NCBI GenBank assembly: GCA_020832455.1 | Contig: JAFIEQ010000021.1 | Location: 1 to 39,492 of the forward strand | Reading direction: 5' to 3' | Source of the DNA: Nitriliruptoraceae bacterium | GTDB lineage: Bacteria > Actinomycetota > Nitriliruptoria > Nitriliruptorales > Nitriliruptoraceae | Length of the DNA: 39,492 nucleotides | Part shown: positions 3,998 to 35,334 of the stretch, piece by piece | Numbering within the stretch: the stretch's first letter is position 1 | How the letters are laid out: the number at the start of each line of letters is the position of its first letter | Notes under the pieces: model-generated | What the model was told of the DNA's origin: nothing | Databases searched by the model: none | The model's input: the letters and a program-made list of their open reading frames with translations, nothing else | Position numbers and translations under genes: made by a program

Positions 3998-4060
3998 GCC
4001 CATGCCGGCACGGACCCGCGTCCGCGGACCTGCTCCACCGCGGCGAGCCCGGAGGCCGGG

Positions 4061-4228: not shown

Positions 4229-4298
4229 CAGCCGCCTCCCTCGTCCGTGACGGACAGCGTACTCCCGGCGCTCGTGGCAGCCCGCAGCGCCGCGCCGG

Positions 4299-5000: not shown

Positions 5001-5117
5001 GGCCGCACGGTAGCGCCGGGTTGCGTCCCCGGACGGTGAGCGCGAAGCTCCGCCCTCCGGGGGCACGACCCCACCGGACACCCCGACACCCCGACGTCCC
5101 GACGCTCAGGAGCAGCC

Positions 5118-6158: not shown

Positions 6159-6167
6159 CGCCGACGC

Positions 6168-6611
6168 TCAGCGCGGGGCGGGGCGGCAGCCGGTCGAGGC
6201 GTCGATCGCGACCTGGTCGGTGGGCCGGTCGAGCTGGACGGTGATGCGGATGCCGTCGCGCCGTCCGAAGACCTCGTCGGGCGCGTCGGTCCCGCTGAGC
6301 ACGTAGTCGTTCGCCGACAGCACCGACGTCGCGCGCCCGAGCGGATCGTCGACCGCGGGGGTCGGCCCGCGGACCGCCAGCCGGTTCGACAGCCCGTTCG
6401 CACCGGTCAGCTGGGTGCACCGGGTACGGGTGCCGAGCGGCGTCTCGCTGGTGACCTCGAGCTCCAGCAGGTCGACCATGTCCGCCACGATCCCGGCGAT
6501 CTCCTCCTCGGCCGTGTCGACGCGGGTCGTGGCCTCACCGGTCCGGCCACAGCCGACCGCGACCAACGCCACGACCGCCCACACCGCCGAGGTGGTCCGC
6601 CACCGCCGCAT
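6168..6611 (-). CDS. Small lipoprotein, function unknown
   Basis: A 147-aa predicted lipoprotein beginning MRRWRTTSAV. A hydrophobic stretch leads to VAVGC with Cys21 as the likely lipidated residue; the lipobox is slightly atypical. The mature part has a helical first half (ATTRVDTAEEEIAGIVADMVDLL) and two cysteines at about 74 and 143 that could form a disulfide. No family recognised. It converges on the deformylase gene with nine bases between the stops. Longer in-frame starts exist but would put a charged extension before the signal peptide. Confidence 0.75.
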   Translation of the reverse strand: MRRWRTTSAVWAVVALVAVGCGRTGEATTRVDTAEEEIAGIVADMVDLLELEVTSETPLGTRTRCTQLTGANGLSNRLAVRGPTPAVDDPLGRATSVLSANDYVLSGTDAPDEVFGRRDGIRITVQLDRPTDQVAIDASTGCRPAPR

Positions 6612-6740
6612 CGCCGACCTCCTGCCATGGGCCACCGGACACGGCCCGTCCCTGGCCCACCGACGGGCCGCCACTGACCGGGAGCGTACGACCAGGCCGC
6701 CCGCCGGCCGCCCGAACGCGCGACCCGGGCGGGCTCGACG

Positions 6741-13649: not shown

Positions 13650-13720
13650 GCGGGTGTAGTTCAATGGTAGAACACGAGCTTCCCAAGCTCGGAATGAGGG
13701 TTCGATTCCCTTCACCCGCT
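13650..13720 (+). tRNA. tRNA-Gly (anticodon CCC)
   Basis: A complete 71-base cloverleaf. The acceptor stem GCGGGTG pairs with CACCCGC; the D arm contains GTTCAATGGTAGAAC; the anticodon stem CGAGC/GCTCG encloses the loop TTCCCAA, giving anticodon CCC for glycine codon GGG; the T arm reads AGGGTTCGATTCCCT; the discriminator base is T. The CCA end is not encoded (CCG follows). The 3' end is the left edge of the accessory island, and tRNA 3' ends are common attachment sites for tyrosine integrases. Confidence 0.97.
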
Positions 13721-13736
13721 CCGCTGAGGCCCGAAC
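13710..13736 (+). repeat. Candidate attL: tRNA 3' end repeat
   Basis: The end of the tRNA and the bases after it (CTTCACCCGCTCCGCTGAGG then CCCGAAC) recur imperfectly at 34535-34558 in the same orientation. About 23 of 28 aligned columns agree, with two small gaps. This suits an old attachment site pair enclosing 20.8 kb, but the match is imperfect and chance is not excluded. Confidence 0.4.
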
Positions 13737-13819: not shown

Positions 13820-14623
13820 TCACGCCAGCTCGGGTACGTCCTCGTCTGGGTGCGAGTACAGCCACCTGGGCCCATGTCCTGTTGCCGCCCGAGCCTCGGC
13901 CATCGCACGCCGTGCCTCAGCCAGGTGAGTGTCGAGCCAGTCAATGCCGAGGGATGGCTCCTCGAGGACCGGTGGCCCCAACCGCAGGAAGACCGCGACG
14001 TCCGGGGCGAGCGGGACGAGCAGCCCATCCTCAGCGCCCGTCAGCCGCACGAACCCCAGGTCGTTGAGTAGCAGGGAGCCGACCGACGAGTCGTAGCGCA
14101 CGCGGACCTCGAGGTCGTACGCCCCCGCCGAGTACTCGCCTCTGCGTTGCTGAGCGAGCCGTGATCGCAGGTCCTGGACTTCGTCGATGGTCAGGCCCGC
14201 CTGCTGGCAGGCCGCGTCGAAGCCCGGCGAGCGCACGGTGATGTCGGCGACGTACTGCTGGATGACGCCGAGGCGTTCCTGTAGTTCGTGGACGCGATTC
14301 GTCTGCGCGTTCGGTCCGAGGGTGTTGCGGGTCCAGTCGATCGCCGTACCGAGACCCTGTTCGATGGGCTCCCAGAGGTGGTCAACCGTGCGTGTGCCGT
14401 CCGAGTAGTCGAAGGCGCCGCGCTCGGCGGCGAAGCTCTCGGCCGAGCGGCAGAAGGAACGGCCGGTCGAGAGGTTGGTGATGCGGACCGTGGCCTGCCT
14501 CCAGGGCTTCCCCTCCTTGGCACGGCCGAAGCGTCCGACGATCGCGGCGGGCACACGGTGCTGCTTCGTCCCGATGGTCCTCCCCGGCGGCTCCGCAGGC
14601 TCTGGAACGCTCAAGCCGCTCAT
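13820..14623 (-). CDS. DUF4238-like protein, last gene of defence operon
   Basis: A 267-aa cytosolic protein without membrane segments. The N-terminal third ([14 protein letters not shown], then [23 protein letters not shown]) resembles DUF4238, whose members begin with an H-VP-x(3)-RF pattern; the assignment is from memory and tentative. The middle has an amphipathic region ([18 protein letters not shown]) and the tail contains [21 protein letters not shown]. Its ATG overlaps the helicase stop codon (ATGA), so it is translationally coupled to the helicase and belongs to the defence operon. It could be a nuclease, a sensor or a system-specific accessory. No catalytic motif is certain. Confidence 0.75.
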
Positions 14624-17600
14624 CTTCGGGAGCTGCCCGTCGACGGGGCCAGTCGCTCGCGCAGGGCCTTGAGGAGCGCCCTGACCATCGTCAAGTCGCG
14701 TTCCTCAGCCTCGTCGGTAAACCACCCGCCCTGGTGGTAGTTGCTGCGCTGCCAGTAGAAGAGCGCTGCGCGGAGGTCACGCAAGGCCACCTGCTCGAAG
14801 GAGGCTTGAGGCCACTCGTCGACGAGCCCTCGGATCGGCTCCCAGGCGGGGTCATCCACGGACCCGATCTCGGCGTAGCCGTTGAAGGTCTGCGCGAAGA
14901 GGGTCACCGCCGTGATCGCTTCCTCATCCCGCGGGTTGGGGTCCGGTGGAACATCTGCAAGGACCAACTCGTCGTCTGGCAGGGCGCTGCGCTCTTGGCC
15001 CGCGGCGTCCATGAGCGCCTGCCACTCCTCCGCGGTCCACAGACGTCCCAGTGACGCGGAGGCGGGGCTACGGGCCGGCGGGGCGGGGGCTGCCTCGACC
15101 AGCGCGTCGAAGGCGGGAGAGCCCCACACGAGGAGCGAGAGGTCCGGGTCCGCCTCGGCCCGCTCCGGATCGAGCACGGCTCGGTGGGAGCGACCGGTGC
15201 CGGTGACGATGGTCCAGTACCCATCCGACGAGGGGTCCGGCAGGGCCGGTTCGAGCGCGCCACGGACGCGTGCCAGCACGTCGCCTCGGTCGAAGCTCCA
15301 CGGACCCTCGTCGGGGTCGTGGCCGTCGAGGGTGGAGTGGTCGAACGTGCCCGCGGTGAGCGCACGCGCTCGAGCCTCGCGGGCGGCCTGGCGCATCGCC
15401 TCGAGCGCGTCCTCGGTGTCCTGCTCGCCGAAGACGATGCTGCTGATGGCCGCTTCGGAGCTGTTCAACACCAACGAGGGGTCGCCGGTGACCTTGCCGG
15501 TCGGCCCGATGACGGCACCGAAGGTGTCGTGGTCGTCGACGATCCCTCGGTAGACGCGTTCTTCCACGGTGTCCCGGATGAGGAGGTTGCGGACATGAGC
15601 GACCTCGGGGCCACCGATGCGGTCGATGCGCCCGATTCGTTGCTCGACCCGCATGAAGTTCCAGGGCAGGTCGTAGTTCACCAGCAGGTCGCAGGTCTGG
15701 AGGTTCAGCCCTTCGGACATCGAGTCCGTGCCGAGCAAGACCTTGAGCGGGTTGTCGGGGTTGGTCGCAGCGTCGCGGAACGTCTTGGTCACCTCACCCT
15801 TGCTGGCGTAGCGCCAGGTTGTGGCGTCATCGGTGGGCAGCTGTCCGCCGCGACCGGAGTAGGTGGCAACCGTCTCGACCCCGAGAGCGGCGGCGAGACG
15901 GTCGCGCAGCCAGTCCATCGTGTCGGTGTACTGGGTGAAGACGATGCAGGTGCGGTGGTCCCCGGCGTAGAGGGTCTCCCGTAGCAGCGTTTCGAACTTG
16001 CGGTACTTCGAGTCCTTGCCGCCACCGGCCTCAAGCACGCCTTCGATGGCGCTGAGGAACCCGTTCAGCTCCGCGAGCTCATCATCGACGCCGGCGATCG
16101 ATTCGGACAGGGACGGGTCGACGAAGCGCTCCTCGGTGTCTTCGAGCACGTCGAGGTCCTCAGCGTCGAGGAGGACGGCGAGATCGAGCGTCGCCTGCGC
16201 GTCATCACGCCGCTGGGCAAGCGCGTCAGCACGTCGTTCGAGCGATACGCGGATGGCGTGGAGCGACGAGGTGAGCCGACGCCGGTAGGTCGTCATCACG
16301 AAGCCGTGAGCGGGCTTCTTGGCTTCCTGGGCCGCCTGGTAGTGGCGAGAGATCCACGTCTCGACGCGGGCGTAGAGCTGCTCCTCTGCCGGGTCGAGGT
16401 CGACGAGCACCTCGTCGGCGTCCCGTTCGGGGATGACGACGTGCCTGCCGATGACGCCGCTCGTCTGGTAGTGGCGAAGCAGGTCTCGGGAGGAGCGGTG
16501 GACAAGGTGCCGGAGCGGCGTCTGCTCGGACAGCCACCACACCAACGCGTCGGTCTTCTCGCGCCGCCAGGAACCCGCACGGGCGGGGTCGGCGGCGTCG
16601 TGCCACCGGAGGACGTCTTGCATGTCCGCGAACCCCACGCGGTCCCTCAGCGCGTTCTCGATCGAACGATCTACGCCCCAGCGCCCCACGGTCGCAGCGA
16701 GCAGTGCTTGCAACCGTCCCCAGGCGCGTTGATCGTGGGGCCGGTCCGTCGCGAGCTGCTCCCAGTAGTCCTCGAACGCCTGGGCGGTCCACTCATCGGG
16801 CAGCCCGAGGACGCTGAGCAGCTCCCACGCTTCGTGCACGTGCATCTGCATCGGCGTGGCCGTCGCGAGCAGCATCCTCTTGACCGGTGCGGAGGCCTTG
16901 GCGTCGCGGAGCAACCTCAGCAGCAGGTTCGCTGAGCCGGGTTTGGCGGCGTCGCTGCGTCGAGCGTGGTGCGCCTCGTCGACCACCAGCAGGTCCCACC
17001 CGGCGTCGAGGACCCGGTCCCGGTGCTGGGACAGTCGCGCAAGGTGCGAGGAGGCGATCAGCAGGTCTGCTGACCGCCACGGGTCACCGTCGATCGGTTC
17101 GATACGGCCGTCGGGCCACACCAGACGGTTGGAGCGGTCGAGCAACGGCACCCAGAGCGAGAACTTGTGCCACATCTCGCCTTGCCACTGGGGTGCCACC
17201 GAGGCGGGCGCAAGGATCAGCACGCGCTTGACGCCGCGGTTCGAGATGGCCTCCCGCACGACAAGGCCCACCTCGATGGTCTTGCCCAGGCCCACCTCCG
17301 AGGCGTGGAGCCGCCCGAACTCCTCGTCACCCGCGGACGGCCACAATGCATCGGTGACCGCTCGCGCCGCTGCGTCCTGGTGCGGCCACGGAGTCACGGT
17401 CGCGGTGCGGAGCCCCGACCAGCGTTCGGTCCGGATGGCCGCTAGCTCGGCCACGACGTCGGTGCCGGGCAGCGACGGCGGATCCGGCTCCGGCTCCTCG
17501 GGCTGGCCGGCGAACGGGTCCACGACGCGTTCGCCGGGGTCGGGAAACTCGACGTGCTCCCAGTCGCGGTCCGGGTCTGCGTACTTGAGCAGTCGGTCGA

Positions 17601-18306
17601 CGGCTGGGTCGGGAAGGTCGAATAGCTGCCACTGCCCAGCGCGGTTGTCGGTCCAGGCGCGATCGAACCGTTCAACGAGCGGCGCTCCGTAGTTGTCCCA
17701 CACGGTCAGGTCCCAGGAGGGGTAGACCGAGAAGCCCTCGTAGTTGCGGGCCCAGCCGGCAGGCGTCTCGTTGAGTGAGCCGCGGAACGCGACGGCGTCC
17801 TCCTCGTCGTCCCACAGGATCCCGACCTTGTCGTGGAAGACCTTGCGCGCTGGATGATCCGGCGGCAACGGGAGACCGTCCTGGCCTTCCATCACCGCGA
17901 CCTTGATCTCCATCAGCCCAGCGGCGACCAGCGTCGCGACCAGCGACAGCCGATCAGATCCCGGCAGCTCGGCGCGGAGCACCGCTTGCTCAACCTGTGT
18001 CTTGACCGCGGACCGGAGTGCCTCGTCATCACCCACCGCCGCGCCCCGGCGGACCTCATCGACGTCGGCCTGTGTCAGCTCCGCGTCCACCACGATGCGG
18101 ATGCGTCCACCGTGACCGAAGAACGACTGAAGCCCCTCGTCTGCGACAGCCTCGAGCGACGCGGCGCGGAAGTAGCCCGCGAACCGGTCGTAGCGAGTCG
18201 CGACCTGCAGGCACGGCACGTAGAACGTCTCACGCGGGCGGCTGCCCGGTTCGTAGTCACGCCGCAGCTGCAGATCCCGCAGCCTGGTTGGAGCAGCGTC
18301 GCTCAC
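14620..18306 (-). CDS. PLD-nuclease-like SNF2 helicase
   Basis: A 1228-aa protein. The N-terminal domain is phospholipase-D-like: HDKVGILWDD (His158, Lys160, Asp166) followed by FRGSLNET (174-181), the H-K...GS-N pattern of PLD-family nucleases in helicase fusions. The SNF2 helicase core follows: EVGLGKT Walker A at 337-343, DEAH at 443-446, ATATP at 481-485, the second lobe with FTQYTDTMDWL near 790, SEGLNLQTCDLLVNYDLPWN, and motif VI QRIGRIDR at 889-896. The C-terminal 300 residues are unassigned. GTG start overlapping the methyltransferase stop (GTGA). Such proteins translocate on double-stranded DNA; with the methyltransferase and DUF499 ATPase it probably discriminates and destroys unmodified phage DNA. 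That job is inferred. Confidence 0.9.
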   Translation of the reverse strand: MSDAAPTRLRDLQLRRDYEPGSRPRETFYVPCLQVATRYDRFAGYFRAASLEAVADEGLQSFFGHGGRIRIVVDAELTQADVDEVRRGAAVGDDEALRSAVKTQVEQAVLRAELPGSDRLSLVATLVAAGLMEIKVAVMEGQDGLPLPPDHPARKVFHDKVGILWDDEEDAVAFRGSLNETPAGWARNYEGFSVYPSWDLTVWDNYGAPLVERFDRAWTDNRAGQWQLFDLPDPAVDRLLKYADPDRDWEHVEFPDPGERVVDPFAGQPEEPEPDPPSLPGTDVVAELAAIRTERWSGLRTATVTPWPHQDAAARAVTDALWPSAGDEEFGRLHASEVGLGKTIEVGLVVREAISNRGVKRVLILAPASVAPQWQGEMWHKFSLWVPLLDRSNRLVWPDGRIEPIDGDPWRSADLLIASSHLARLSQHRDRVLDAGWDLLVVDEAHHARRSDAAKPGSANLLLRLLRDAKASAPVKRMLLATATPMQMHVHEAWELLSVLGLPDEWTAQAFEDYWEQLATDRPHDQRAWGRLQALLAATVGRWGVDRSIENALRDRVGFADMQDVLRWHDAADPARAGSWRREKTDALVWWLSEQTPLRHLVHRSSRDLLRHYQTSGVIGRHVVIPERDADEVLVDLDPAEEQLYARVETWISRHYQAAQEAKKPAHGFVMTTYRRRLTSSLHAIRVSLERRADALAQRRDDAQATLDLAVLLDAEDLDVLEDTEERFVDPSLSESIAGVDDELAELNGFLSAIEGVLEAGGGKDSKYRKFETLLRETLYAGDHRTCIVFTQYTDTMDWLRDRLAAALGVETVATYSGRGGQLPTDDATTWRYASKGEVTKTFRDAATNPDNPLKVLLGTDSMSEGLNLQTCDLLVNYDLPWNFMRVEQRIGRIDRIGGPEVAHVRNLLIRDTVEERVYRGIVDDHDTFGAVIGPTGKVTGDPSLVLNSSEAAISSIVFGEQDTEDALEAMRQAAREARARALTAGTFDHSTLDGHDPDEGPWSFDRGDVLARVRGALEPALPDPSSDGYWTIVTGTGRSHRAVLDPERAEADPDLSLLVWGSPAFDALVEAAPAPPARSPASASLGRLWTAEEWQALMDAAGQERSALPDDELVLADVPPDPNPRDEEAITAVTLFAQTFNGYAEIGSVDDPAWEPIRGLVDEWPQASFEQVALRDLRAALFYWQRSNYHQGGWFTDEAEERDLTMVRALLKALRERLAPSTGSSRR

Positions 18307-21302
18307 GTCTCGAGCCCGAATGCCAACGTCTCCTGCTGAGCCACCGGAGTAGCCACGCTGCGCTCGACGTCAGCGAGGCGGAGGCCCAGCGTCGGAACGT
18401 TCGTCGCAACCTCGTCGATCACCTCAGCGAGTTCGACGCTCCATTCGCCGTCCTGGTCCTGCACGCGCGGGACGGCGTTCGCCAGCGCGAGCACCGCCTC
18501 CTTGAACTCGGTCGAGTGCTCGTAGCCATGCTCGACCAGCCAGGACCGGACCGATCCAGCCCCGTCGGTGGTGTACAGCCGCAGCATCACCGAAACAGCG
18601 TCGTAGAGGTTGGAGAACGGCCCCTCGGGCTTCAGCCTCCGCTGGACCCGGTCGCGCGGGTCGACGAGGGAGACGTTGCTGCCCTTCTTGGCCAGCACCT
18701 TGCCATCGATCAACCCATTGACATCCGCCCCGACACCCAGCGCGAGCTTGCGGGCTTCGTCGAAGGGGAAGCCCACGTCCGCGAACAGCGACCACGACAG
18801 CACCACGAAGTCCGTGATCGGGTCGAACCGCCGTTCGTGGCCGACCAGCCGGGCAATGCGCAGCTTGGCAACCTCCGCACGTGCGATGTCGAGCGCCTCC
18901 TCTGGACGGATCGGCACCAGGTTCCCCGAGGCATCCGCTTCCGAGCGGTAGACGGGCCAACGACGGGACAACACCGACAGCGTTGGTCCGTATGTCGACA
19001 GCATCAGATCGACGCCGCCGTGTCCGACGATTGGCTCGAAGTCCTCCGCCCCCTGCCGGGCGGCTGCACGCAGGCTCGCTTCGATGTCCTCGAAGAACAC
19101 CTTGGACGTGTCGTCGACCAGTCTCTTGCGGCAGACGAGGACGATCGTCGACTTCGCAGCATTCACGTTCGTCTGATGCAGCGAGACCTGCGCCTCGGTG
19201 TTGACTGGCCACGACGTCTCGATGGTGAACCCAGCGTCCATGAGCGCGGCACCGAGAGTGTCCCAGGCTTCGGCACGCTTGTGGGTGAACCAGACAACCA
19301 GCACTCCGTCGTCACGCAACACTCGACGCGACTCGGCAAAGATGTCTCTCATCTTGGACTCGTAGTCACTATCCGCCAAGGCCTTGCGCTGCTTGCCCTT
19401 CGCGAAGTCAAAGCGGGCGATGTTCGCAACCGCTTCGTTGTCCTTGTCGGTCAGTTCGGACTTGAAACGGTCCGGGAACAGCTGACCCAGAGTCCGCTTC
19501 TCCCAGACATAGAAGAAGTCTGCAAGCTCGGCGTACATGACGTTGTCGTAGTACGGCGGATCGATGTTGACGCACTCGACAGAACCGTCCTCAAGGTAGG
19601 GAAGGTCCGAGCCCGAGCTCAGACTGAGCGTGAGGGGTCCCGGCACCGAAGGGCTTGCTTCCGAAACGTCGTCCTCGAACAGTCCTTGACCGGAGTCGAC
19701 TGACGTCCCCGACACGATGCGGTCCAAGTAGGGAAGCAGTTCTGCATTCAGCCCTCTTTGCCATAGGCGGGAGGCGCCCTCGTACTCAGCAAAGGTCCAC
19801 TTGAACGAGAAGTCGTGTCTGGCGAACATGTGTGAGAAGCCATTCTTGGCTGGCGTCCACTCAGTTGACCGAGAGTTGTAATCAAGCGCCTTGGCTTGCA
19901 TCATCGCCAGCGTGGCCATGACTGCCTCGGCATCCTCCTCAGCCAGTTCGGCTCGGGCTTCGTCCGCAACCTCACGCCACTTCTCGACGAAGGTCCCATG
20001 CACGAGGAGTTGGCGCGGCGTGAAGAAGTCGCGCCAGTGCTCGAATCCGTACGGACGGATGTCGTGTTTCGGGATAGGCGGCGGCACCTCCTCAGTTGGG
20101 ATGACGTCGGAAGCTGCCCATCCCGGCTCCCGCCTTGCAAGTTCGTCAGCTGCTCGCGCCAGCCCATCGATGTCATCCCTAGTCGGATGACGGACCTCCC
20201 ACTCGCCGCGACCTCCTCGCACCTTGACTGCGTAGAGCATGGCGAACATCCGGCCGTCTTGTGCCTGGCGCTTGATCTCGTCTCGGTCGATGGGTAGCTC
20301 GTCCCAGGGAGAGACGGCTTCTCCGCCCTTGACTGTCCCGAGGGACGGATCTTCTTCTACGTCTCCTGCATCGCAGATGTCGAATGTGATGTGCGACGGC
20401 CGACCTGCGTCGTCACGGTGGTAGACAGGACGAGCAACCTTCTTTGCTTTGCCCTTGTTCACGAGCCACCAGTTCGGCACCAACGGAACGGGCCCGCGTG
20501 TTCTCGGGCATTCGATCGCGTTCGCGAAGATGTAGGCCTCGGGAACCAGACCGTCAGCGTGGGGTGGGAAGTAGGGCGACAGAGACGCTTCTAGCCGCTC
20601 GCATAGCTTGCGTCCCCACTCCTCAGCAAGACTTCGCCCCGCGCTGCCGAGCGCCCCAGGCACAGCGACCGATCCCAACATGGCAGCCACGGCTACGGGG
20701 TTGAGGTCATTGGCCACAGCGTGGAGGCCATACCTGATGGCTGCGTACGGGATCGAACCTCCACCTGCCGTCGGGTCTAGCACCGCAGGCACACGCCCCC
20801 AGGTTCTAGTCAGTAGGCGATGGAGCACCTGCAGATCTCGGGCGTAGGGGCGTGCCTGCCAGGCCTTCTCCCACGCCCACGCGGCACCGGCGGACTCTCC
20901 GAGCTCGTAGCGGCGTTGACCCTCTACGTTGTCGCCGCGTATCCCGCACACCCAGAGCACCCAGTTGCGGTAGCGGCCCTCGTCCGAGTCGGCTGGCAGA
21001 TACGTCGTGGCATCTAGCGCGTCCCGCAGGCCCTCTACCTGGTCGAGGAGGCTCTCACTCCACGGCGGGAGAAGCGCAGCGACTTGGACGCCTTGAGCTG
21101 CGCCCACTGGACGTCGGGCCCACCAGAGGTGGATCAGGAAGAGCGGTGGCAGATGGCCGATGGCACGCCGCTCGCGACCGGCGTCTATCCCAAGCTCTGT
21201 GACGGGAAGCCAGCGTTCAATCAGTGTCTCACGCACTGGCGCTGAGACGGTCGTGGCCACCGGGGGCGGCGCACCAATCACTCGATCTATGTCAAGGCTC
21301 AT
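18303..21302 (-). CDS. DUF1156 DNA adenine/cytosine-N4 methyltransferase
   Basis: A 999-aa DNA methyltransferase. The N-terminal DUF1156 region reads LIERWLPVTELGIDAGRERR then GHLPPLFLIHLWWARRP (about residues 27-65). The AdoMet-binding motif I equivalent is DPTAGGGSIPYAA (176-188), and the catalytic motif IV is NIDPPYYDN with DPPY at 581-584, of the N6-adenine/N4-cytosine type. A late strand LVVWFTHKR and a long C-terminal region follow. Together with the DUF499 ATPase and PLD helicase it should provide self-marking. ATG chosen at MSLDIDR, 23 bases after the preceding stop; an in-frame GTG at 21329 overlaps that stop and is an alternative. Parts of the gene (19.7-20.6 kb) are poorer in GC than the flanks, in keeping with transfer. 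Confidence 0.92.
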   Translation of the reverse strand: MSLDIDRVIGAPPPVATTVSAPVRETLIERWLPVTELGIDAGRERRAIGHLPPLFLIHLWWARRPVGAAQGVQVAALLPPWSESLLDQVEGLRDALDATTYLPADSDEGRYRNWVLWVCGIRGDNVEGQRRYELGESAGAAWAWEKAWQARPYARDLQVLHRLLTRTWGRVPAVLDPTAGGGSIPYAAIRYGLHAVANDLNPVAVAAMLGSVAVPGALGSAGRSLAEEWGRKLCERLEASLSPYFPPHADGLVPEAYIFANAIECPRTRGPVPLVPNWWLVNKGKAKKVARPVYHRDDAGRPSHITFDICDAGDVEEDPSLGTVKGGEAVSPWDELPIDRDEIKRQAQDGRMFAMLYAVKVRGGRGEWEVRHPTRDDIDGLARAADELARREPGWAASDVIPTEEVPPPIPKHDIRPYGFEHWRDFFTPRQLLVHGTFVEKWREVADEARAELAEEDAEAVMATLAMMQAKALDYNSRSTEWTPAKNGFSHMFARHDFSFKWTFAEYEGASRLWQRGLNAELLPYLDRIVSGTSVDSGQGLFEDDVSEASPSVPGPLTLSLSSGSDLPYLEDGSVECVNIDPPYYDNVMYAELADFFYVWEKRTLGQLFPDRFKSELTDKDNEAVANIARFDFAKGKQRKALADSDYESKMRDIFAESRRVLRDDGVLVVWFTHKRAEAWDTLGAALMDAGFTIETSWPVNTEAQVSLHQTNVNAAKSTIVLVCRKRLVDDTSKVFFEDIEASLRAAARQGAEDFEPIVGHGGVDLMLSTYGPTLSVLSRRWPVYRSEADASGNLVPIRPEEALDIARAEVAKLRIARLVGHERRFDPITDFVVLSWSLFADVGFPFDEARKLALGVGADVNGLIDGKVLAKKGSNVSLVDPRDRVQRRLKPEGPFSNLYDAVSVMLRLYTTDGAGSVRSWLVEHGYEHSTEFKEAVLALANAVPRVQDQDGEWSVELAEVIDEVATNVPTLGLRLADVERSVATPVAQQETLAFGLET

Positions 21303-21325
21303 TACGGGGTCCCAACTGGTCTGAC

Positions 21326-21790
21326 TCACTCTGCGGCGAGGTAGATGCGGAGCGCCTTGGTACGGCGCTGGTCGGTGGGCGATCCCGCGCAGGTGGCTGC
21401 ATACCAGTAGAGGCACTCCTCGTCGGCGAGCCTGGCAACGCCGTCCAGTAGCGCGCGGGTGCGGCCGGGCTTGGTGATGCCGTGTACGACGTTGAGCGCC
21501 AGCGCGAGCCGGACACCGGCCATCTCGTTGAGGTCGATGGGTTGCTTGCGAGTCGGTGCGAGCACGCGGGGCTGCTTGCCCGACGCACTGAGGGCAGCGA
21601 CGACGGCGTCGGAGACTCGTGAGTAGCGGGCAGCGGGCAGGTGGGCGACGGGGCGTGCGTGGTCGGGTCGGCCGTTGGTCTCGTGCAGGCGCAAACCAAA
21701 GGTGCCTTCGTCGGCGGGTTCGACCTGGAGGCGGAACCCGCGGTGGCCGGGGCGAGCCGGCTTCTTGGCCGTGCGTGTGGAGGCTGGCAT
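21326..21790 (-). CDS. Small partner protein of DUF499/DUF1156 system
   Basis: A 154-aa basic protein with no membrane segment. The N-terminus (STRTAKKPARPGHRGFRL) is Lys/Arg-rich and the C-terminal half (GVRLALALNVVHGI, ARLADEECLYWYAA, RRTKALRIYLAAE) is the conserved-looking part. In related loci this place between the DUF499 and DUF1156 genes is held by small families named DUF3780 or DUF7680; the EE-x-YWYA and ALRI-L features recall DUF7680 to me, but I cannot verify it. Its ATG overlaps the DUF499 stop by one base (TGATG), so it is translationally coupled and probably binds one of the large partners. Confidence 0.75.
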   Translation of the reverse strand: MPASTRTAKKPARPGHRGFRLQVEPADEGTFGLRLHETNGRPDHARPVAHLPAARYSRVSDAVVAALSASGKQPRVLAPTRKQPIDLNEMAGVRLALALNVVHGITKPGRTRALLDGVARLADEECLYWYAATCAGSPTDQRRTKALRIYLAAE

Positions 21791-24700
21791 CAGGCCACCT
21801 TGCCGTTGGCCTTGGCGGACACGTCGGCGAACGCCGTCGTCAGAGTCTGGCGGAGCGCGATCCACTGCTGTTGGTCGGTGGCGATCGGCTGGTCGAACGC
21901 CAGCGTGAACCGAACGCGGCCGGAGCACTTCTCGGCTGCAGCGACGAGCCGTTCGATCAACGGCTTGGCTGCGCCGAGGGTGGCCTTGTCAGCCTTGACG
22001 TCGGCGGTTGCGGTACCGAGTTCGCCGGTCAGTTCGGCGGCGATCTCGAGGTCGACGGTCAGTGGCAACGACTGGACCATCGAGGGGATCGTCAGCGCAG
22101 CGCGTGCACGGTTACCGGCAGGGTCGAGGTCGAAGGTGACAGCGAGTTGTGCGATGCCGGTGAGGTCGTCGTTCTCGGTGATGAGATCGGCTGCGCGGGC
22201 GTACGCCTTGCCGAGCGCTTCCCCCACCGTGCCGGAGGCGGAGAACAGGTCGTTGCGTGGCTGGACGGACTCCTCTTGGGGACGGACCAGGCGGATGTGG
22301 TCGAAGCCGATGTCGTCGAGGTCGGATGGGACCAACTCGACGGTCGTGTCATCGTCCTTGTATGCCTTCACTCGCCCGGTGCGAATCGCGGACTTCACCA
22401 CGTCCCGCAGATCGGCCTTGGTCGGCATGTGCCCGCCGCGGGCATCCTCGATCTGTGTGCGGACGTCGGTCAACACGACCGGATCGGCACCGGGCTCAGG
22501 CACCGCCTGAAGGAGCATGGGCACGTCGACGGGCGGGGCGATGTAGCCCTGCGCTTCGGCGTGAGCCCGTTCGACGAGGAAGGTGTTGTCATCGATTGCT
22601 GGGGTTGCTCGGCCACGGGGTTCGTCGGCGAGGAATGCCCCCGAGTGCTGGTCGTAGTAGACCCACTCGCCGGCCTCCGCACCTTGCGAGATGGCCTTGG
22701 TCAGCTGAGCGTCGGTCGGAACGATCTTGGCACCGTGGTCACGCCACAGATGCGACTTGACCTCAGCGGTGGAGATCTGCGGCTGCTGGTTCACCCAGCC
22801 CTTCTGCTTCAACCACGCTGCCGACACGGGCCCGTCGAAGACCAGATCGTGCTGGATGAGCAGGTCCCACACCCGATCGGTTCCGGAGGTCGCAACGTCA
22901 CCCTTCTGCGCCGGCGTCAGCTGCTGGTGAGCGAGGTGGGCGTTGGCCTTGTCCGACACGGGCCAGTAGATGTGGGAGAAGCATGAGGCGACCGCGATGG
23001 AGGCCGACAGGTCGGCCTGGTCGGCCGCGGTCTGGATCTTCTCGCGCAGTCGTCGGTTGCCCTCACCAGGGAACCGAGTCTCATCGTCAGCGAGCCGTTT
23101 GGCAGCGAGCTTGCGAGCCACCTCGCGGTGCATGTTGGCCAGAAGCGGCTCGTCAGCGACGACGAACACGACACCGTTACGGTTACGTCGGCGGCGGTCG
23201 TTGTAGTTGTCGCGTGCCTCGGCCAACAGCGACGGCGGCGGCAGCGCCTCGCGATCAGAAACGGCGACCTCGCTCGGGTGCACGACCGCCATGTGGAGTC
23301 GTTCCTCGTCCTTGACCGATCCCAGCCCAGAGCTGGGGAACACGTCGACCTTGACGACGGCCTTGGCTGTCTGGTCCGACGGGGTCCGGAACAGCGCCAG
23401 CACGAGATCGTCGACCTCGTCGAGAACCTTCCCGCCGGCCTGACCTCCGGGCAGCAGCGCCGCGGTCTCCTCCGCGAGGATCTTCTTCTCGTTCGGTTCG
23501 GGCGTGAAGCGCCACCGGTCACCGGTGGCCTCCAAGTGCCAGGCAACCGCAGCCGTGTCGTCGAGCGCGTCGACGATGGTCGACGGGTCGTCGCCAGGCC
23601 GGGCAGCTCCGAGCAGCACGTCGCCTCGGGTCGCGCCCACGACGTTCGTGCGCTCGAGTGAGTGCACGAACGTCACCGTCGCAGCTCGCGCGGCGTGACG
23701 GGCCTGCGAACCGCGCTTGTGGTCGACCTCGACGGCGTGGGCGTCATCCCCGACAAGATCTGCGTCCGCGACCTGCTGGAACTCGGACCGGTCGAGCTTG
23801 ATGGTCAGCTGCCGCAGCAGGTCGTTGTCGTCTAGCGGCAGGTCACCGACGTTGAGCGTCGGGGGGGCCGTGTCCGGCTCATCCCACAGGATCCTGACGG
23901 TGCGTGCCAGCAACCGGAGCGCGCCACGGGTGCGCTGGAAGGTGGGGATCGTGGACAGCCGTTGATCGAGCACGCGCACGAGCTCGGGGTGTAGCGGGTA
24001 GGTCGCTTGGACCGTGGCTGCGTAGCCTTCGGGGTTGGATGTGGCACCGGCGAGGTGCTCACCCTGCCCAGCGAACTTGTCGTATGCACCTCGGTACTCC
24101 GAGGCTGTCTCGGCCGCGGCTTCGAGGTCGACGTCTGCGAACAACCGACGCTTGATGATCTCGGCGATGTCGGTGTCCTCGGCCGGCTGGACCATGCCGT
24201 GCTGGCGACCTACGACCGAGTCGATCTCCGCCTGCACGGTCGCGGTCTCCTCCGAGAACGCGTCCTGCGCCGTGGCGAGTGTGATGACGACCACCAGGTT
24301 CGGGGTCGACATCGAGTGCTCGAACAGCGTCTTGAGGAACGCGGGGATCTGGCGTGCCATCCGCCGGACATCTTCGTCGCCCGACTGCGAGCAGGTACGC
24401 AGGTACGCGGCGATCTCGTCGATCATGACCACGGTCGGAGTGGTGCCGATGACGTCGGTCAGCGTCTCGCGGCCGGGCGGGGTGCGCGTCTCGTCGGAGC
24501 GACGCATCGCCTGCCACGAGTTGTCACCGAGCTGGGCTGCAAGCGCGCCCCACAGTGTCAGCGCTCGGGCCCCGTCTGGCGCTGCGGTGCCGTTGACCGG
24601 GTCGAGCGCGTCGCCGACGAGTGCGACGGATCGGCAGTCGTCCGGCAGCAGCGCCGGGTCGATGAACTCATCGACGTTGTCCGGCTTCGCGCCGGCGGCG

Positions 24701-24996
24701 AGGTGGTGAACGGCGATGAGCGAGTGGGTCTTGCCGCCGCCGAAGGAGGTCTCGGCTCGAACGACTCCTGACTCCCCATCCGACGTTCGCGACAGGCGTC
24801 CGAACACGCGACGGAGCAGTTCCTTGAGCCCGGCTGTGGGGTAGGTCAGCGCGAAGAACGCGTCAGCCTGTCCGTACACGGGGTAGGCGTCGGGATTACG
24901 CACGACCGCGTCGAGTTGAGCTGCGAAGTGCTGGTCGGTCAGCTCGCCCGCGAGGACGTCCTCGCGGGGCGTGCACGTAGCGGTGATCGGCTTCAC
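21790..24996 (-). CDS. DUF499 AAA-type ATPase, first gene of defence operon
   Basis: A 1068-aa cytosolic ATPase. The N-terminus (VKPITATCTPREDVLAGEL, then FAAQLDAVV) is typical of DUF499 proteins. Walker A is SFGGGKTHSL (about residues 84-93) and Walker B is VVMIDEIAAYLR (189-200, Asp193/Glu194). C-terminal regions contain a winged-helix-like part and a late alpha/beta domain. GTG start preceded by a GGGGGA ribosome site; longer in-frame starts give unrelated low-complexity sequence. It is the first gene of the operon and diverges from a plus-strand membrane-protein gene, leaving 229 bp for promoters. DUF499 ATPases occur next to DUF1156 methyltransferases and PLD helicases in loci annotated as anti-phage. 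The precise action of the ATPase is not known to me. Confidence 0.92.
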   Translation of the reverse strand: MKPITATCTPREDVLAGELTDQHFAAQLDAVVRNPDAYPVYGQADAFFALTYPTAGLKELLRRVFGRLSRTSDGESGVVRAETSFGGGKTHSLIAVHHLAAGAKPDNVDEFIDPALLPDDCRSVALVGDALDPVNGTAAPDGARALTLWGALAAQLGDNSWQAMRRSDETRTPPGRETLTDVIGTTPTVVMIDEIAAYLRTCSQSGDEDVRRMARQIPAFLKTLFEHSMSTPNLVVVITLATAQDAFSEETATVQAEIDSVVGRQHGMVQPAEDTDIAEIIKRRLFADVDLEAAAETASEYRGAYDKFAGQGEHLAGATSNPEGYAATVQATYPLHPELVRVLDQRLSTIPTFQRTRGALRLLARTVRILWDEPDTAPPTLNVGDLPLDDNDLLRQLTIKLDRSEFQQVADADLVGDDAHAVEVDHKRGSQARHAARAATVTFVHSLERTNVVGATRGDVLLGAARPGDDPSTIVDALDDTAAVAWHLEATGDRWRFTPEPNEKKILAEETAALLPGGQAGGKVLDEVDDLVLALFRTPSDQTAKAVVKVDVFPSSGLGSVKDEERLHMAVVHPSEVAVSDREALPPPSLLAEARDNYNDRRRRNRNGVVFVVADEPLLANMHREVARKLAAKRLADDETRFPGEGNRRLREKIQTAADQADLSASIAVASCFSHIYWPVSDKANAHLAHQQLTPAQKGDVATSGTDRVWDLLIQHDLVFDGPVSAAWLKQKGWVNQQPQISTAEVKSHLWRDHGAKIVPTDAQLTKAISQGAEAGEWVYYDQHSGAFLADEPRGRATPAIDDNTFLVERAHAEAQGYIAPPVDVPMLLQAVPEPGADPVVLTDVRTQIEDARGGHMPTKADLRDVVKSAIRTGRVKAYKDDDTTVELVPSDLDDIGFDHIRLVRPQEESVQPRNDLFSASGTVGEALGKAYARAADLITENDDLTGIAQLAVTFDLDPAGNRARAALTIPSMVQSLPLTVDLEIAAELTGELGTATADVKADKATLGAAKPLIERLVAAAEKCSGRVRFTLAFDQPIATDQQQWIALRQTLTTAFADVSAKANGKVA

Positions 24997-27393: not shown

Positions 27394-29229
27394 ATGGACG
27401 AGACGACCCGAACCCGCATCGACAACTACCGCCCAACGGTCAGCCTGCCTGACGACGCGGCGCTCGACGCCGTGCGTGACGCAGTGCGGCGTGCCGAGCC
27501 CGACGATGCCGATCGGGCAGCACTGCTTCTCCACACCGCGTCCCGGCACGTCTGCTGGGCAACCGCCAACGGCTACACCGGGGACGTGCGCAAGCTGTTC
27601 TCACCTGCGTGTGTCGCCGCTTCGGTTGCAGCCGCCGAGGCCGCATCCGCCAGTTCCGTGTCGCCGTACCGCTCCCGCTTGAACCGGCTCTGTGGAGCGG
27701 TTTCGGGTCGTCCGCCATCGGCAAGACGGAGGCCTGGCTCCGCACCTAGTTCACGTGTGTCACCGCGGCAGCCCTCCGCAGAGCTCAGTGCCATACGTGT
27801 GGCAGCGCGGGGCATGAACGTGGAAGAGCATCACGACTTGGAGGCGGCCATGGCCCTGGGTGCTGGCGCCGGCCTCGTCGGACCGCTCGCCTCACTCGTG
27901 CACGCCAAGCACCTGCAGGTCATCGCCGGCCACGTCGTCGCATGTGGGCCTGGTTTCGGACCGGTGGTCGTTCGCGAACCGTGGGGAGCGGTCATCCTCC
28001 GGATTGTGGAGCAGCGCGGTGACGGTCCGCTCACCAGCCTCTACACGTCCGCCGGACGGCAGCGGGTTGAGAGAGGGTTGCGGGCCAGTCCGCATGCGCC
28101 AGAGTTCCAGGCGCACCGGCTGCGCACCGGTTGGATCACCGACCTGCTGTCTGCCGGCGTGCCCCTCGATGTGGTCGCTGTGCTGGCCGGCATCACCGTC
28201 GCCTCTCTTCATCCCTATGTCGCCCTGTCCGAAGCGCCGGCACAGACGACAGGGTCCACACCTGAGATCGCCCCGTTCACGGGGCTCCAACGCCGGCCCG
28301 GTCCAACGACTCACCAAGGGCACAACGTTGCTGCCGTGATCGATCACCGGCAGCCGCAGAGTGCCGCGGTCGCAGCGGTGTGGTCGTCCGAGGAGGCCGA
28401 GGAGCTTCGGCAACTCGTCCGTGATCGTGCGACCACGGAGAAGCAGGCCAAGAACCTCCTGACTGCGCTGTTCGTGCTGTTGGAGTGGGCGATCGAACAG
28501 CCCGGCCTGCCGCTGCGGCCACAGACGCTGCTCAAGGAGACCACCTTGAAGCGGTGGGCTGCCGTCCAGATCGCGGAAGGCCTTGCCGACAAGTCGGTGG
28601 CGGCCTACCTCTCCCGACTTCGACGGCTGTCGGGCGTCCCCGAGGCGTCCGGGGATCGTGGGCGGCAGCCGGCAGCCGCAGGGGCGTACAGCGAGGAGGA
28701 ACGCCGAACGCTGATCGCAGCCTCGGACCCATCCGCCAGCCCACTGTCCGAGCGACTCCGTCGCCACTTGGCTGCCCACGTTCATGGCCAACTCGGGGGC
28801 GGCGTGTCCGGCCACGAAGTGGCGACGACCTTGGGAAGCGACGTCCAACGGACCGACGTTGGGATCCAGCTGCACGTCCGGGGAACGCCCGCGCGCCTGG
28901 TTCCACTACACGGCCCGCATGCAGACGCGCTGGCGCGACTCGCTGAACAGGCCCCTGACGAGACACTGACCGGTCTCACCGGCAACGACGCGCGACAGCG
29001 CCACTTGGTGATCAGCAACCAACTCGGGTTCGAGTTCCATCCACGTCGGCTGCAGGCCACCTGGATCGTCGACCGGGTCCGTGACGGCGCCACCGCGCAC
29101 GAGCTCTGCCTCGGGACCGGGCTCACCCTGGTTGCGATGGCACCACAGATCGAGGCGGCTGCCGAAACACGACCGCTGGCTGAAGTCGTCGCCTGGTCAG
29201 CTTGGCCCGCTACAGAGCTGCGGGGGTGA
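27394..29229 (+). CDS. Double tyrosine-recombinase-like protein, degenerate
   Basis: A 611-aa protein made of two tandem integrase-like modules. Module 1 (about 1-290): N-terminal IDNYRPTVSLPDD, a helical core-binding-like part, then a catalytic-like part ending HRLRTGWITDLLSAGVPLDV (H241xxR244) and HPYVAL (Tyr275). Module 2 (about 325-611): core-binding-like with LPLRPQTLLKETTLKR, then FHPRRLQATWIVDRV (His549/Arg552). The first catalytic Arg, expected in a G-x-R-x-x-E setting, is missing in both (GLVGPLASL; GVSGHEVATTL), and module 2 has no Tyr nucleophile. It therefore probably binds DNA or partners rather than recombining alone. The next gene repeats the same module. Family assignment is by pattern and tentative. 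Confidence 0.65.
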   Translation: MDETTRTRIDNYRPTVSLPDDAALDAVRDAVRRAEPDDADRAALLLHTASRHVCWATANGYTGDVRKLFSPACVAASVAAAEAASASSVSPYRSRLNRLCGAVSGRPPSARRRPGSAPSSRVSPRQPSAELSAIRVAARGMNVEEHHDLEAAMALGAGAGLVGPLASLVHAKHLQVIAGHVVACGPGFGPVVVREPWGAVILRIVEQRGDGPLTSLYTSAGRQRVERGLRASPHAPEFQAHRLRTGWITDLLSAGVPLDVVAVLAGITVASLHPYVALSEAPAQTTGSTPEIAPFTGLQRRPGPTTHQGHNVAAVIDHRQPQSAAVAAVWSSEEAEELRQLVRDRATTEKQAKNLLTALFVLLEWAIEQPGLPLRPQTLLKETTLKRWAAVQIAEGLADKSVAAYLSRLRRLSGVPEASGDRGRQPAAAGAYSEEERRTLIAASDPSASPLSERLRRHLAAHVHGQLGGGVSGHEVATTLGSDVQRTDVGIQLHVRGTPARLVPLHGPHADALARLAEQAPDETLTGLTGNDARQRHLVISNQLGFEFHPRRLQATWIVDRVRDGATAHELCLGTGLTLVAMAPQIEAAAETRPLAEVVAWSAWPATELRG

Positions 29230-29236
29230 TTGCCGC
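29217..29236 (+). repeat. 20-bp direct repeat, copy 2
   Basis: GCTGCGGGGGTGATTGCCGC, overlapping the stop codon of the 611-aa recombinase-like gene and lying 47 bases before the ATG of the next one. It matches the copy at 27346-27365 at 18 of 20 positions. Confidence 0.65.
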
Positions 29237-29263
29237 GGCGAGGCCGGGCGGCACCTCTGTCTC

Positions 29264-30280
29264 ATGGACAACCACGACATCGCCAACCTGATCGACAACT
29301 ACACGCCCGCGTCGCTGACGGCGGACGACTGGCAGGCTGTCTGCACCGACGTTCGAGCCTGGGTGCATGCCGCGGGGCCGGGGCATCCTCACCGGGCACG
29401 GCAGCTGCTCGCAGCCGCGGCTCAGCTCGCCGCCTGGTGCAGAGAAGCTGGCATCCCCCTTCGCCCGGACACAGCGCTCAAGGCCACGACGATCGAGCGC
29501 TACTGCGCCGTGGCCGAGCGCGCCCGCCGTCACTCGGCCACGACACGTGCGACCATCCGGGCGCGCCTTCGCTGTCTCGCTCGTGTCCAGCACATCCACG
29601 GGCAGCCGCCCCCACCGCCAGAGATACGGCGCGGACGGGTGAAGCCGCCGTACACGGCTGCTGAGGTCGCCAGCTTCTTCCTGCTCGTCCGTGGCCAGTC
29701 CGAGCCCACGGCGACGCGTCTCAGCGCGCTCTTGCTCGCCGGGCTCGGCGCGGGATGCGGCAGCGAGGAGCTCCGCGACCTGCGGGGCACCGACATCCGA
29801 CGCGCGGCTGATGGCACCGTGCTCGCACACCTTCGGGGTCGCCAACAGCGCACCGTGCCGGTGGTGAGCAGCTACGCAGATCGGCTGGCCGACATCGCCG
29901 AACGAAGCGGCGACGCGATCCTGATCGGCGGCGCGAAGGCGGATCGGCGTGCCGTCGCCTCTGGGCTGCTTCATCGGCTGCATGGCGTGGACTCGCTGAC
30001 TCCGCTCGAGCCGGGCCGGTTGCGGTCAACTTGGATCGCGGGGCGGCTCATCGCCTGCGTCAGACTCGACGTGCTGATGCAGGCCGCTGGGCTTACTACG
30101 CCGACGACCATCGTCGACCTCGCCGCGAGTCTCCCCGCGTTCCCCATCGATCTCGCACATCGACAGTTGCGAGCCGACCAGCCGCCTGATGCCGTCGATG
30201 CGCGCCGAACGCACGAGTTCGACGGCGTCGCGCGTCGCGACTGCCCGCCCGAACTCGCCTCGGACGGTCGCGGCGCATGA
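29264..30280 (+). CDS. Tyrosine-recombinase-like protein, degenerate
   Basis: A 338-aa single-module relative of the two modules in the gene before. The N-terminus IDNYTPASLTADD echoes IDNYRPTVSLPDD of module 1, and IPLRPDTALKATTIER (64-79) echoes the matching segment of module 2. The core-binding-like part is about 20-115; the catalytic-like part runs from about 128 (PPYTAAEVASFFLLV), through LLLAGLGAGCGSEELRDLRGTDI, RGRQQRTVPV and LEPGRLRSTWIAGRL, to about 295. Catalytic Arg I (Gly in GCGSEE), the His of HxxR and the Tyr are absent. ATG start with the 20-bp repeat upstream. The final 45 residues are unlike the other modules and overlap the transposase start by four bases (ATGA). Confidence 0.65.
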   Translation: MDNHDIANLIDNYTPASLTADDWQAVCTDVRAWVHAAGPGHPHRARQLLAAAAQLAAWCREAGIPLRPDTALKATTIERYCAVAERARRHSATTRATIRARLRCLARVQHIHGQPPPPPEIRRGRVKPPYTAAEVASFFLLVRGQSEPTATRLSALLLAGLGAGCGSEELRDLRGTDIRRAADGTVLAHLRGRQQRTVPVVSSYADRLADIAERSGDAILIGGAKADRRAVASGLLHRLHGVDSLTPLEPGRLRSTWIAGRLIACVRLDVLMQAAGLTTPTTIVDLAASLPAFPIDLAHRQLRADQPPDAVDARRTHEFDGVARRDCPPELASDGRGA

Positions 30281-32066
30281 CCATCAACCTGAACCGGCAG
30301 CCCTCGAACGACGCTCTCAGCGTCGCGTCCGACCTCGCAGCCGAGACCCCCCGCCCGATGTCTCCCCTGGAGGCCCGACTCCGCACCGACTTCGAAGACG
30401 TCCGCGCCGTCGTTGACGCCTCCCAAGTGGCCAGCACCTACGAGTACCTGTGCGTCCGTCGAAGCGACAAAGGCAAGGTGCTTGGCCGGCCCCGCAGGAT
30501 GACGATGCGAGCCTTCCTGATCCTCGCCATCCTCACCTGCCTGCGCGAGCGCCCACCATCGATCGTGAAGATCACCGAGACCGCCAACGAACTCCCCGAG
30601 GACCTGCTCGAGCAACTGCGCCTCATGAAGCAAGGCGAGCGCCGCTGCACGATCACGACGAGTCAGGTGGGCCACGTCTTCAACGCCCTCGCCAACAGCC
30701 TGGACCTCTCCCCGTACCGCCCTGGCAAGCGACTCGGTGTCACCAGCGACGGGCACGTGGTCGACCAGTTCAAGACGGCTCAGATCGACCGCAAGTGCCT
30801 GCAGCCCGACCTGACCAACGAACAACTCGAACCCGCCGTAGCCACTCGACAGCTCGCGGACCGCCAGCCAACCGAGCTGACCGCCGAGGTTGCCGCATCC
30901 CGCGAAGCGGCCCTTCATGGCCTCATCGACCGCATGCTCCAAGCCACCGTCGACCCTGACCTGGACATCCGCACAGCGGCGATCGACTGGACCGACCGCG
31001 AAGCTTGGGCCCGCGGGGGCCGCCACGCCCGAGGAACCAAGGACGGCGTCCTGTCCGCCGATCCGGATGCGAAGTGGGGGCGACGACGGCCCTCGGGCAA
31101 CAGCTTCACCCCGTCGCGCAAGGCCGTCAAGAAGGCCGCCGGCCCCCTCGACAAGGACGGGTTCGAGACCGACAAGACCCAGTACTACTTCGGCTACCTG
31201 GTGCATGTCGCCGTCGCGACCGGGGAGGTCGACGGCCCCCCGCTCCCCGAACTCGTCCTCTGCCTGCGCGTCGCACCAGCCGACGACATGGCCGGCGTGG
31301 GCCCAGCACTCACCGACATGATCGACTCCATCCGAACCATAGCCCCGATCGACCACGCCATCGTGGCTACTCCATGCGAGCCGCCGAGTCCGTTCACCTG
31401 CCACTCGCGAACCGCGGCGTCCATCTGACCTTCGACCTGTCCAAGCAGCAGCGACAGCGGCACGGCACGACCGCCGACGGGGCCATCATGATGGGCGGCG
31501 ACTTCTACTGCCCGATGCTGCCTCGCGAGATCGAGGTCGAGGGCATCCCCGGCCCTCAAGCGACTCGCGAGGACTGGGCCGACTACCACCGCAGGCGCAA
31601 GGCCCGCGAAGCGTGGATGATGGCTCGAAAGGGCAGGCCAACCGCTGACATGGGCAAGCAGCGTTTGGTGTGCCCGGCCGCCGCCAACAAGCTCCGCTGC
31701 CCCCTGCGTCCGGACTCGATGGCACTCCCCGAGGAACGGAACATCCCCGAGATCTACGACGACCAGCTCGATGACATCCGTGACGCGCTCCCCAACTGCT
31801 GCACCTCCAAGTCCTTCACCGTCCACCAGCAGGACGGGGCGGGTCGTCGCCAGCAACATCACTTCGGTAGCCCGGAATGGATCCGCTCCTACGACCGCCG
31901 GACCGCGTCCGAACGCGTGATCTCGCACTACAAGAAGCTCGTACGAACGGGCCGTGAGGACATCCAGGTGTTCGGCCGCACGCGACAGACCCTCGCTGTC
32001 GGGTTCGCCACGGTCGCACTCAACATCCGCCTGGTGCGGAACTGGGAGCAGAAGACCGACGGGTAG
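30277..32066 (+). pseudogene. DDE transposase, frameshifted
   Basis: A transposase of a large DDE family, about 600 aa if restored, broken near 31366. Frame one runs from ATG 30277 to a stop at 31428 and includes RPRRMTMRAFLI and AAIDWTDREAW, the likely first catalytic Asp. The protein continues in another frame with RGYSMRAAES, VHLTFDLSKQQRQRHG, FYCPMLP, CPAAANKLRCPL, and SYDRRTASERVISHYKKL (likely catalytic Glu) to a stop at 32066. Homologues are expected to read about IVADRGY at the join; only IVA then GYS remain, so the second Asp is lost. A 10-base deletion between two GTGGC copies would explain both. No slippery heptamer is seen, so programmed frameshifting is less likely. The ATG overlaps the preceding stop. 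Confidence 0.75.
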
Positions 32067-32097
32067 GTCCAGCCGTTCGTCCCGACATGCACGCCGG

Positions 32098-32135
32098 GAA
32101 GGGTGCCGGCCCCCCCCGGGGGGGCGGGACCCTTC
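32098..32135 (+). terminator. Long GC hairpin after transposase
   Basis: GAAGGGT at 32098-32104 pairs with ACCCTTC at 32129-32135, with a C-run and a G-run pairing inside. It lies 30 bases after the transposase stop and 80 bases before the CBASS operon. It has no T-tract but is strong enough to separate the two units. It may also belong to the end of the transposable element. Confidence 0.6.
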
Positions 32136-32214
32136 GTCGTACCTGGACTCAGGAGGCTCCGGGGTTGTGTCACGGGCCAGGCATAGCCTTGTCCGAGACA
32201 CAAGAGGAGATGGT

Positions 32215-33105
32215 GTGAGCACCGAAGACCTGCTTGCCAGCTGGACCGGACCGTCCAGTACGTCGGAACAGGAGAAGCAGGAGCGCACCGAGCGGATGAT
32301 CCGCGATGCGGTCCGGGCCCACCCTGCGTTCGACGGTGTGTCGCTTCGAACCTTCGCCAAGGGCTCGTACCCCAACAACACCAACGTGCGGGTTGACAGC
32401 GATGTCGATGTCGCCGTCGAGTGCAACGAGGTCGTGTACTGGGAGGAGTCGACGCCCGGGGCCGGCAGGGCAGCGACGAGTGGCTCCCGGTACGAGGGCC
32501 CGTGGACCCCAACGAAGTTGCGAACCGAGGTTGCCGGCGCGCTCAGGGCCCGGTTCGGTGACCAGGTCGATGCGTCCGGAACGACCGCGATCCGTGTCAG
32601 GTCCAGCAGCGCACGCGTCGAAGCGGACGTGGTGCCGTGCTTCGCCTACGAGTACCACCTCCCGGGCGAGACGCGCCGAGGAACCCGCATCTTTCGCAAG
32701 AACGGTGACGCGATCGAGAACTACCCCGATCAGCACCTCGAACGCGGCCGGACGAAGAACACCGGTACCACAAGCCGGTTCAAGAAGACCGTGCGCATCC
32801 TCAAGCGGGTCGAGAACGCGATGGTCGAGCAACAGGTCCACCGGGCTGTCCCGTCCTTCCTCGTCGAGTCGCTGGTCTACAACTGCCCGAACACGCTGCT
32901 GAGACGGACGACCTGGACAGGCACGGTCGGCGCCGTCCTCGCACACATCTGGGAGAGTCACCAGGGCGACGCGGAGCCAGCTGAGCCCGATCGCTGGCTC
33001 GAGGTCAACGAGTGCAAGTACCTGCACTTCGCAGCGCAGCCATGGTCACGGCGGGATGCCCGGGAGTTCGCATTCGCGGCGTGGAACTACCTGGAGTTGG
33101 GCTGA
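32215..33105 (+). CDS. CD-NTase (CBASS cyclic-oligonucleotide synthase)
   Basis: A 296-aa nucleotidyltransferase of the CD-NTase/OAS class. The active site is FAKGSYPNNT with GSY at 50-52, then VDSDVDVAVE with catalytic Asp63 and Asp65, and a third Asp138 in RVEADVVPCF. The C-terminal helical half includes RFKKTVRILKRVENAM and FLVESLVYNCPN. Such enzymes make cyclic di- or trinucleotides when phage infection is sensed; which product cannot be told by eye. GTG start with AGAGGAG five bases before. One base separates its stop from the Cap15-like gene, so the two form an operon, a minimal type I CBASS without Cap2/Cap3 or HORMA/TRIP13 genes. Confidence 0.92.
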   Translation: MSTEDLLASWTGPSSTSEQEKQERTERMIRDAVRAHPAFDGVSLRTFAKGSYPNNTNVRVDSDVDVAVECNEVVYWEESTPGAGRAATSGSRYEGPWTPTKLRTEVAGALRARFGDQVDASGTTAIRVRSSSARVEADVVPCFAYEYHLPGETRRGTRIFRKNGDAIENYPDQHLERGRTKNTGTTSRFKKTVRILKRVENAMVEQQVHRAVPSFLVESLVYNCPNTLLRRTTWTGTVGAVLAHIWESHQGDAEPAEPDRWLEVNECKYLHFAAQPWSRRDAREFAFAAWNYLELG

Positions 33106-33106
33106 C

Positions 33107-34534: not shown

Positions 34535-34558
34535 CTTCACCCCCTGCCGCTAGCCCCG
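34535..34558 (+). repeat. Candidate attR: imperfect tRNA 3' end repeat
   Basis: CTTCACCCCCTGCCGCTAGC then CCCGACC resembles the tRNA-Gly 3' end and flank at 13710-13736 (CTTCACCC identical, then CT, CCGCT, AG and CCCGA shared with two single-base gaps). Further out, ACATAAGTC occurs on both sides (13757-13765 and 34601-34609). It lies between the GIY-YIG gene and lemA, where island gives way to chromosome. Confidence 0.4.
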
Positions 34559-35324: not shown

Positions 35325-35334
35325 GAGCGCCACG

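Follow-up and report, generated by a model that had tools for sequence, protein, structure and literature searches.

The window analysed here is a stretch of 39,492 nucleotides from a Nitriliruptoraceae bacterium, and at 13820-24996 it contains five coupled open reading frames (ORFs), all on the minus strand and transcribed from 24996 to 13820. Gene 1 (21790..24996; GTG start at 24996, stop at 21790) encodes a DUF499 AAA+ ATPase resembling HmaC; gene 2 (21326..21790; ATG start at 21790, stop at 21326) a small DUF7680 protein of 154 aa; gene 3 (18303..21302; ATG start at 21302, stop at 18303) a DUF1156 DNA methyltransferase resembling HmaB; gene 4 (14620..18306; GTG start at 18306, stop at 14620) a PLD(HKD)-SNF2 helicase/translocase-nuclease resembling HmaA and the helicases of Type-2 BREX-related (BR) systems; and gene 5 (13820..14623; ATG start at 14623, stop at 13820) a DUF4238-like protein of 267 aa. 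The five coupled genes proposed in an earlier note on this DNA are thus present, joined by a one-base overlap (TGATG) between genes 1 and 2, a 23-base gap between genes 2 and 3, and four-base overlaps between genes 3 and 4 (GTGA) and between genes 4 and 5 (ATGA). They also share a codon-position signature, with GC3 of 0.76-0.86 and GC2 of 0.46-0.55; gene 5, with GC of 0.71/0.51/0.85 at the three positions, is like the other four, and this identifies it as a real coding sequence and not a shadow ORF.

Profile searches of all five products, a check that the note had proposed, returned families for genes 1-4, and for gene 5 only when profile was compared with profile. Gene 1 matches Pfam DUF499 (E 3.2e-35) and PADLOC HmaC (E 6.3e-84), with Walker A (GGGKT) and Walker B (VVMIDE) both intact. 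Gene 3 matches Pfam DUF1156 (E 3.4e-8) and PADLOC HmaB (E 3.9e-64) and retains the methyltransferase motif DPTAGGGSIP as well as the catalytic DPPY, a motif type present in 87 of 87 relatives. Gene 4 is recognized by Pfam SNF2-rel and Helicase_C (E 8.5e-13 and 2e-14) and by PADLOC HmaA (E 3.7e-62), with GLGKT, DEAH, and QRIGRIDR intact; the Pfam PLDc_2 match is weak (E 0.012), and an N-terminal HKD-type motif, HDKVGILWDDEEDAVAFRGSLN, lies near ORF residue 179 and is kept in 69 of 70 related helicases. Together, these profile matches and intact motifs bear out the suggestion of a defence-type DUF499/DUF1156/PLD-helicase operon. The narrower NCBIfam anti-phage equivalogs are not reached: the DUF499, DUF1156, and PLD models give 178, 183, and 295 bits against cut-offs of 1200, 1000, and 1100, and the match of gene 4 to NF042964 (E 1.4e-87) likewise falls under its curated cut-off. 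Cut-offs missed by so wide a distance mark this system as a relative of those families, not a member.

The closest described systems are the Type-2 BR loci in the account by Rakesh & Krishnan (2026; PMC12839542) and the NCBIfam anti-phage DUF499/DUF3780/DUF1156/PLD set. The window has the same core families in the same order (DUF499, small protein, DUF1156, PLD(HKD)-SNF2 helicase), and it carries the features by which that account recognizes Type 2, namely a DUF499 ATPase with a DUF1156 methyltransferase, and an HKD nuclease N-terminal on the SNF2 helicase. What it lacks is the stand-alone DUF3780 gene, reported for 98% of taxa there; the window has DUF7680, whose similarity to DUF3780 is only remote. 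It departs further from both sets in its separate methyltransferase clade, its sub-threshold NCBIfam scores, and the addition of gene 5. The likeness to Hma (helicase-methylase-ATPase; Payne, 2021; PMC8565338) is one of component models, with HmaA, HmaB, and HmaC all matched. HmaB has been called an m5C enzyme (PMC8565338), whereas the DPPY motif of the window methyltransferase argues for amino-methylation. Two Type-1 examples (L135 and L137) are unlike the window, with the order helicase-DUF1156-DUF499 and no small gene. Type-3 BREX has an ATPase, methyltransferase, and helicase homologous to the kind found here, according to the same account (PMC12839542), but neither PglZ nor BrxC/DUF6079 is among the Pfam matches of the five products, and the window ATPase is DUF499 rather than DUF6079.

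The earlier note was also right to doubt that the small partner was the usual DUF3780. Gene 2 matches Pfam DUF7680 (PF24728; E 9e-24) and not DUF3780, and no PADLOC model matches it. Its AlphaFold2 (AF2) model (pLDDT 93) has four strands and five helices, and a four-strand, five-helix pattern is described for DUF3780 in PMC12839542. When the DUF7680 and DUF3780 profiles are aligned, the C-terminal half scores 28-33 (P ~0.001), whereas none of 100 column shuffles exceeds 17.6. One DUF7680 protein bears an ASCH domain, a fusion also described for DUF3780 in PMC12839542; a Foldseek search of the DUF7680 model against the PDB gave no significant match. The weak profile score and the equal strand and helix counts suggest that DUF7680 is probably a remote homolog or counterpart of DUF3780 rather than a new part.

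DUF7680 sequences proved too variable in alignment to serve for scanning genomes, so the methyltransferase was the query against ~85,000 species genomes, and the 80 nearest loci among the matches listed were compared. DUF7680 is present in 73 of these 80 and DUF3780 in none, and all 30 small proteins sampled from the nearest loci match PF24728. The nearest loci listed span Actinomycetota, Chloroflexota, Pseudomonadota, Acidobacteriota, Cyanobacteriota, haloarchaea, and others; plasmid examples likewise keep the order DUF499-DUF7680-DUF1156-helicase, some of the cyanobacterial ones with inserted genes. A methyltransferase tree was built in which seven systems of the DUF3780 type and three of Type 1 accompany the DUF7680 loci; it is quick and midpoint-rooted, and long branches call for caution in reading it. 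The DUF3780-type and Type-1 groups each form one side of a fully supported branch, and the remainder of the tree consists of the DUF7680 loci and six loci with no detected DUF7680. The window methyltransferase falls among actinobacterial sequences, on a long branch of its own. This large, cross-phylum, DUF7680-bearing lineage has no name in the papers searched and may be under-described; PMC12839542 may count such loci under DUF3780.

The operon lies on an island inserted at the 3' end of a tRNA-Gly(CCC) gene (13650..13722, plus strand), which forms the left edge. Nine family relatives resemble the window at the DNA level as far as 13721-13723, the tRNA 3' end, where the similarity stops; the operon begins 98 bases beyond this edge, with GC lower than in the left flank. 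In one of the nine relatives (L160), the tRNA and dcd are separated. A search of the window for a second copy of the tRNA 3' end found none. A CBASS pair on the plus strand at 31954-33748, comprising a CD-NTase (PADLOC cyclase, 1e-122) followed by a Cap15 effector (PF18153), lies ~7 kb from the operon, and this proximity marks the stretch as a defence island. Beside it, at 33809-34540 on the minus strand, is a gene for a DUF7662 protein (7e-20) with a possible GIY-YIG end. Two adjacent plus-strand ORFs at 27394-30280 show weak phage-integrase similarity (E 0.01-0.06) and may be degenerate tyrosine recombinases belonging to the island; transposase-like ORFs at 30277-32066 (plus strand; DDE_Tnp_1_6, E 3e-4) lie in overlapping frames, apparently broken by a frame change. 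Beyond the island, a membrane-protein gene (35251-37164, plus strand) that adjoins dcd in many family relatives is here ~22 kb from it, the result of a rearrangement.

Searches of gene 5 by hmmscan against Pfam, PADLOC, NCBIfam, and PHROG matched no family, and the gathering score of PF14022 was not reached. A DUF4238 profile built from 12 actinobacterial DUF4238 proteins aligned by hhalign with residues 21-137 at a score of 41.6 (P 1.8e-5); the best of 60 shuffles reached 21.5 and the best of 400 natural ORFs 20.0. Only profile-profile alignment makes this separation; plain hmmsearch with the DUF4238 HMM did not distinguish gene 5 from shuffles, and a single-sequence AF2 model (pLDDT 39) was unusable. 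The DUF4238-like label given previously holds, then, as remote homology to the PF14022 family, recognized by an alignment above both nulls. A single DUF4238 protein confers strong T7 resistance on its own, and the stand-alone gene belongs to P2 hot spots of E. coli (Rousset, 2022; PMC9122126). The likeness to the DUF4238 family is clearest in the N-terminal half of gene 5, from the region of the QHRVP...F motif to VRSP. In PMC9122126 the gene stands alone, whereas gene 5 is coupled to a BR-type operon and scores below the Pfam cut-off.

The note had further supposed that the fifth gene might mark an undescribed subtype; it proposed testing whether the gene recurs after the helicase in other genomes, and named its absence beside this system elsewhere as a refutation. 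Such recurrence was not found: an ORF search returned no gene 5 homolog in any of the 80 nearest loci listed, even at E 10, although in ~52 of them the sequence continues for 0.9 kb or more past the helicase. Nor was a homolog found in 66 class genomes, plasmids, phages, or viral contigs; short matches in the class genomes were low-scoring, and those in 397 phylum genomes were low-scoring and at chance level. The best short match (G309) was rejected as a chance frame interrupted by stops. A subtype of five genes, with gene 5 as its dedicated component, would draw on the translational coupling of gene 5 and on the long branch of the window methyltransferase among its actinobacterial relatives, but these absences leave that reading unsupported, and we consider it very unlikely.

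It is more credible, if still rather unlikely, that gene 5 works independently as a single-gene defence, like the stand-alone DUF4238 gene of the E. coli P2 hot spots, and came by chance to lie behind the helicase within an island, mechanistically unconnected with the four-gene system. Its absence from the related loci speaks for such an account, as do the 12 actinobacterial DUF4238 genes, none of which has a system gene within ~10 kb or before its contig ends; in E. coli a DUF4238 protein defends by itself (PMC9122126), and the island is itself a mosaic that includes CBASS and transposase genes. Only this one locus links gene 5 to the system, and gene 5, lying at the island's edge, could be a passenger. 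However, the ATGA coupling, shared strand, and shared codon signature imply that the genes are carried on a single transcript and co-translated. The position after the helicase is also variously filled at other loci: a caspase-domain gene (Peptidase_C14, 3e-14) overlaps by four bases the stop of the helicase at L065, which ends near 9528, while an OLD-TOPRIM gene begins 35 bases after the helicase at L043 and a KAP NTPase gene follows it at L041. Such variety fits the idea of back-up effectors, which is raised in PMC12839542, and makes an accessory role for gene 5 likelier than a core one; an accessory effector is what gene 5 most likely is. At L011, the helicase is followed, at 3847-6641, by a DUF4365 gene and, coupled to it, one whose product resembles a Piwi/Argonaute C-terminus, a resemblance noted by eye and with no Pfam match.

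Taken as a whole, the operon is fairly likely, in our estimation, to combine a DUF499-centred, BREX-related, restriction-modification-like system of Type-2 kind (genes 1-4, with DUF7680) and an accessory or back-up effector (gene 5) on a tRNA-Gly island. Its gene content, coupling, families, conserved motifs, lineage, and place on the island are seen in the sequences themselves, and from these we infer its biochemical steps and what DUF7680 and gene 5 do. The DUF1156 methyltransferase would mark host DNA, its DPPY motif predicting amino-methylation at N6-adenine or N4-cytosine; the DUF499 ATPase would assemble the complex on DNA, with DUF7680 as a putative adaptor or reader between it and the methyltransferase; and the PLD-SNF2 protein would translocate along and cut unmarked invading DNA. 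Gene 5, translationally coupled and occupying a variable slot, may act when the core is engaged or blocked. DUF7680 systems are linked to defence by sequence evidence only, and the operon might instead be a regulatory or genome-maintenance methylation module. We regard this as highly improbable: the Hma relatives and neighboring CBASS genes fit defence, as do the patchy distribution at tRNA islands and the conserved nuclease-helicase.

A broader proposal would treat the DUF7680 loci as a distinct cross-phylum lineage centred on DUF499, with a swappable effector position following the helicase, where DUF4238-like, caspase, OLD-TOPRIM, or KAP proteins would serve as back-up killers under the control of the system; this is speculative, and we think it improbable as it stands. 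At the scale of the window, gene 5 offers a testable example of DUF4238, a defence family known to act alone, having been captured by an operon. DUF7680, which is very widespread, is not named in the defence literature searched, and is missed by current defence libraries, can here be assigned to one particular slot of BREX-related systems; the findings suggest that it is the functional equivalent of DUF3780.
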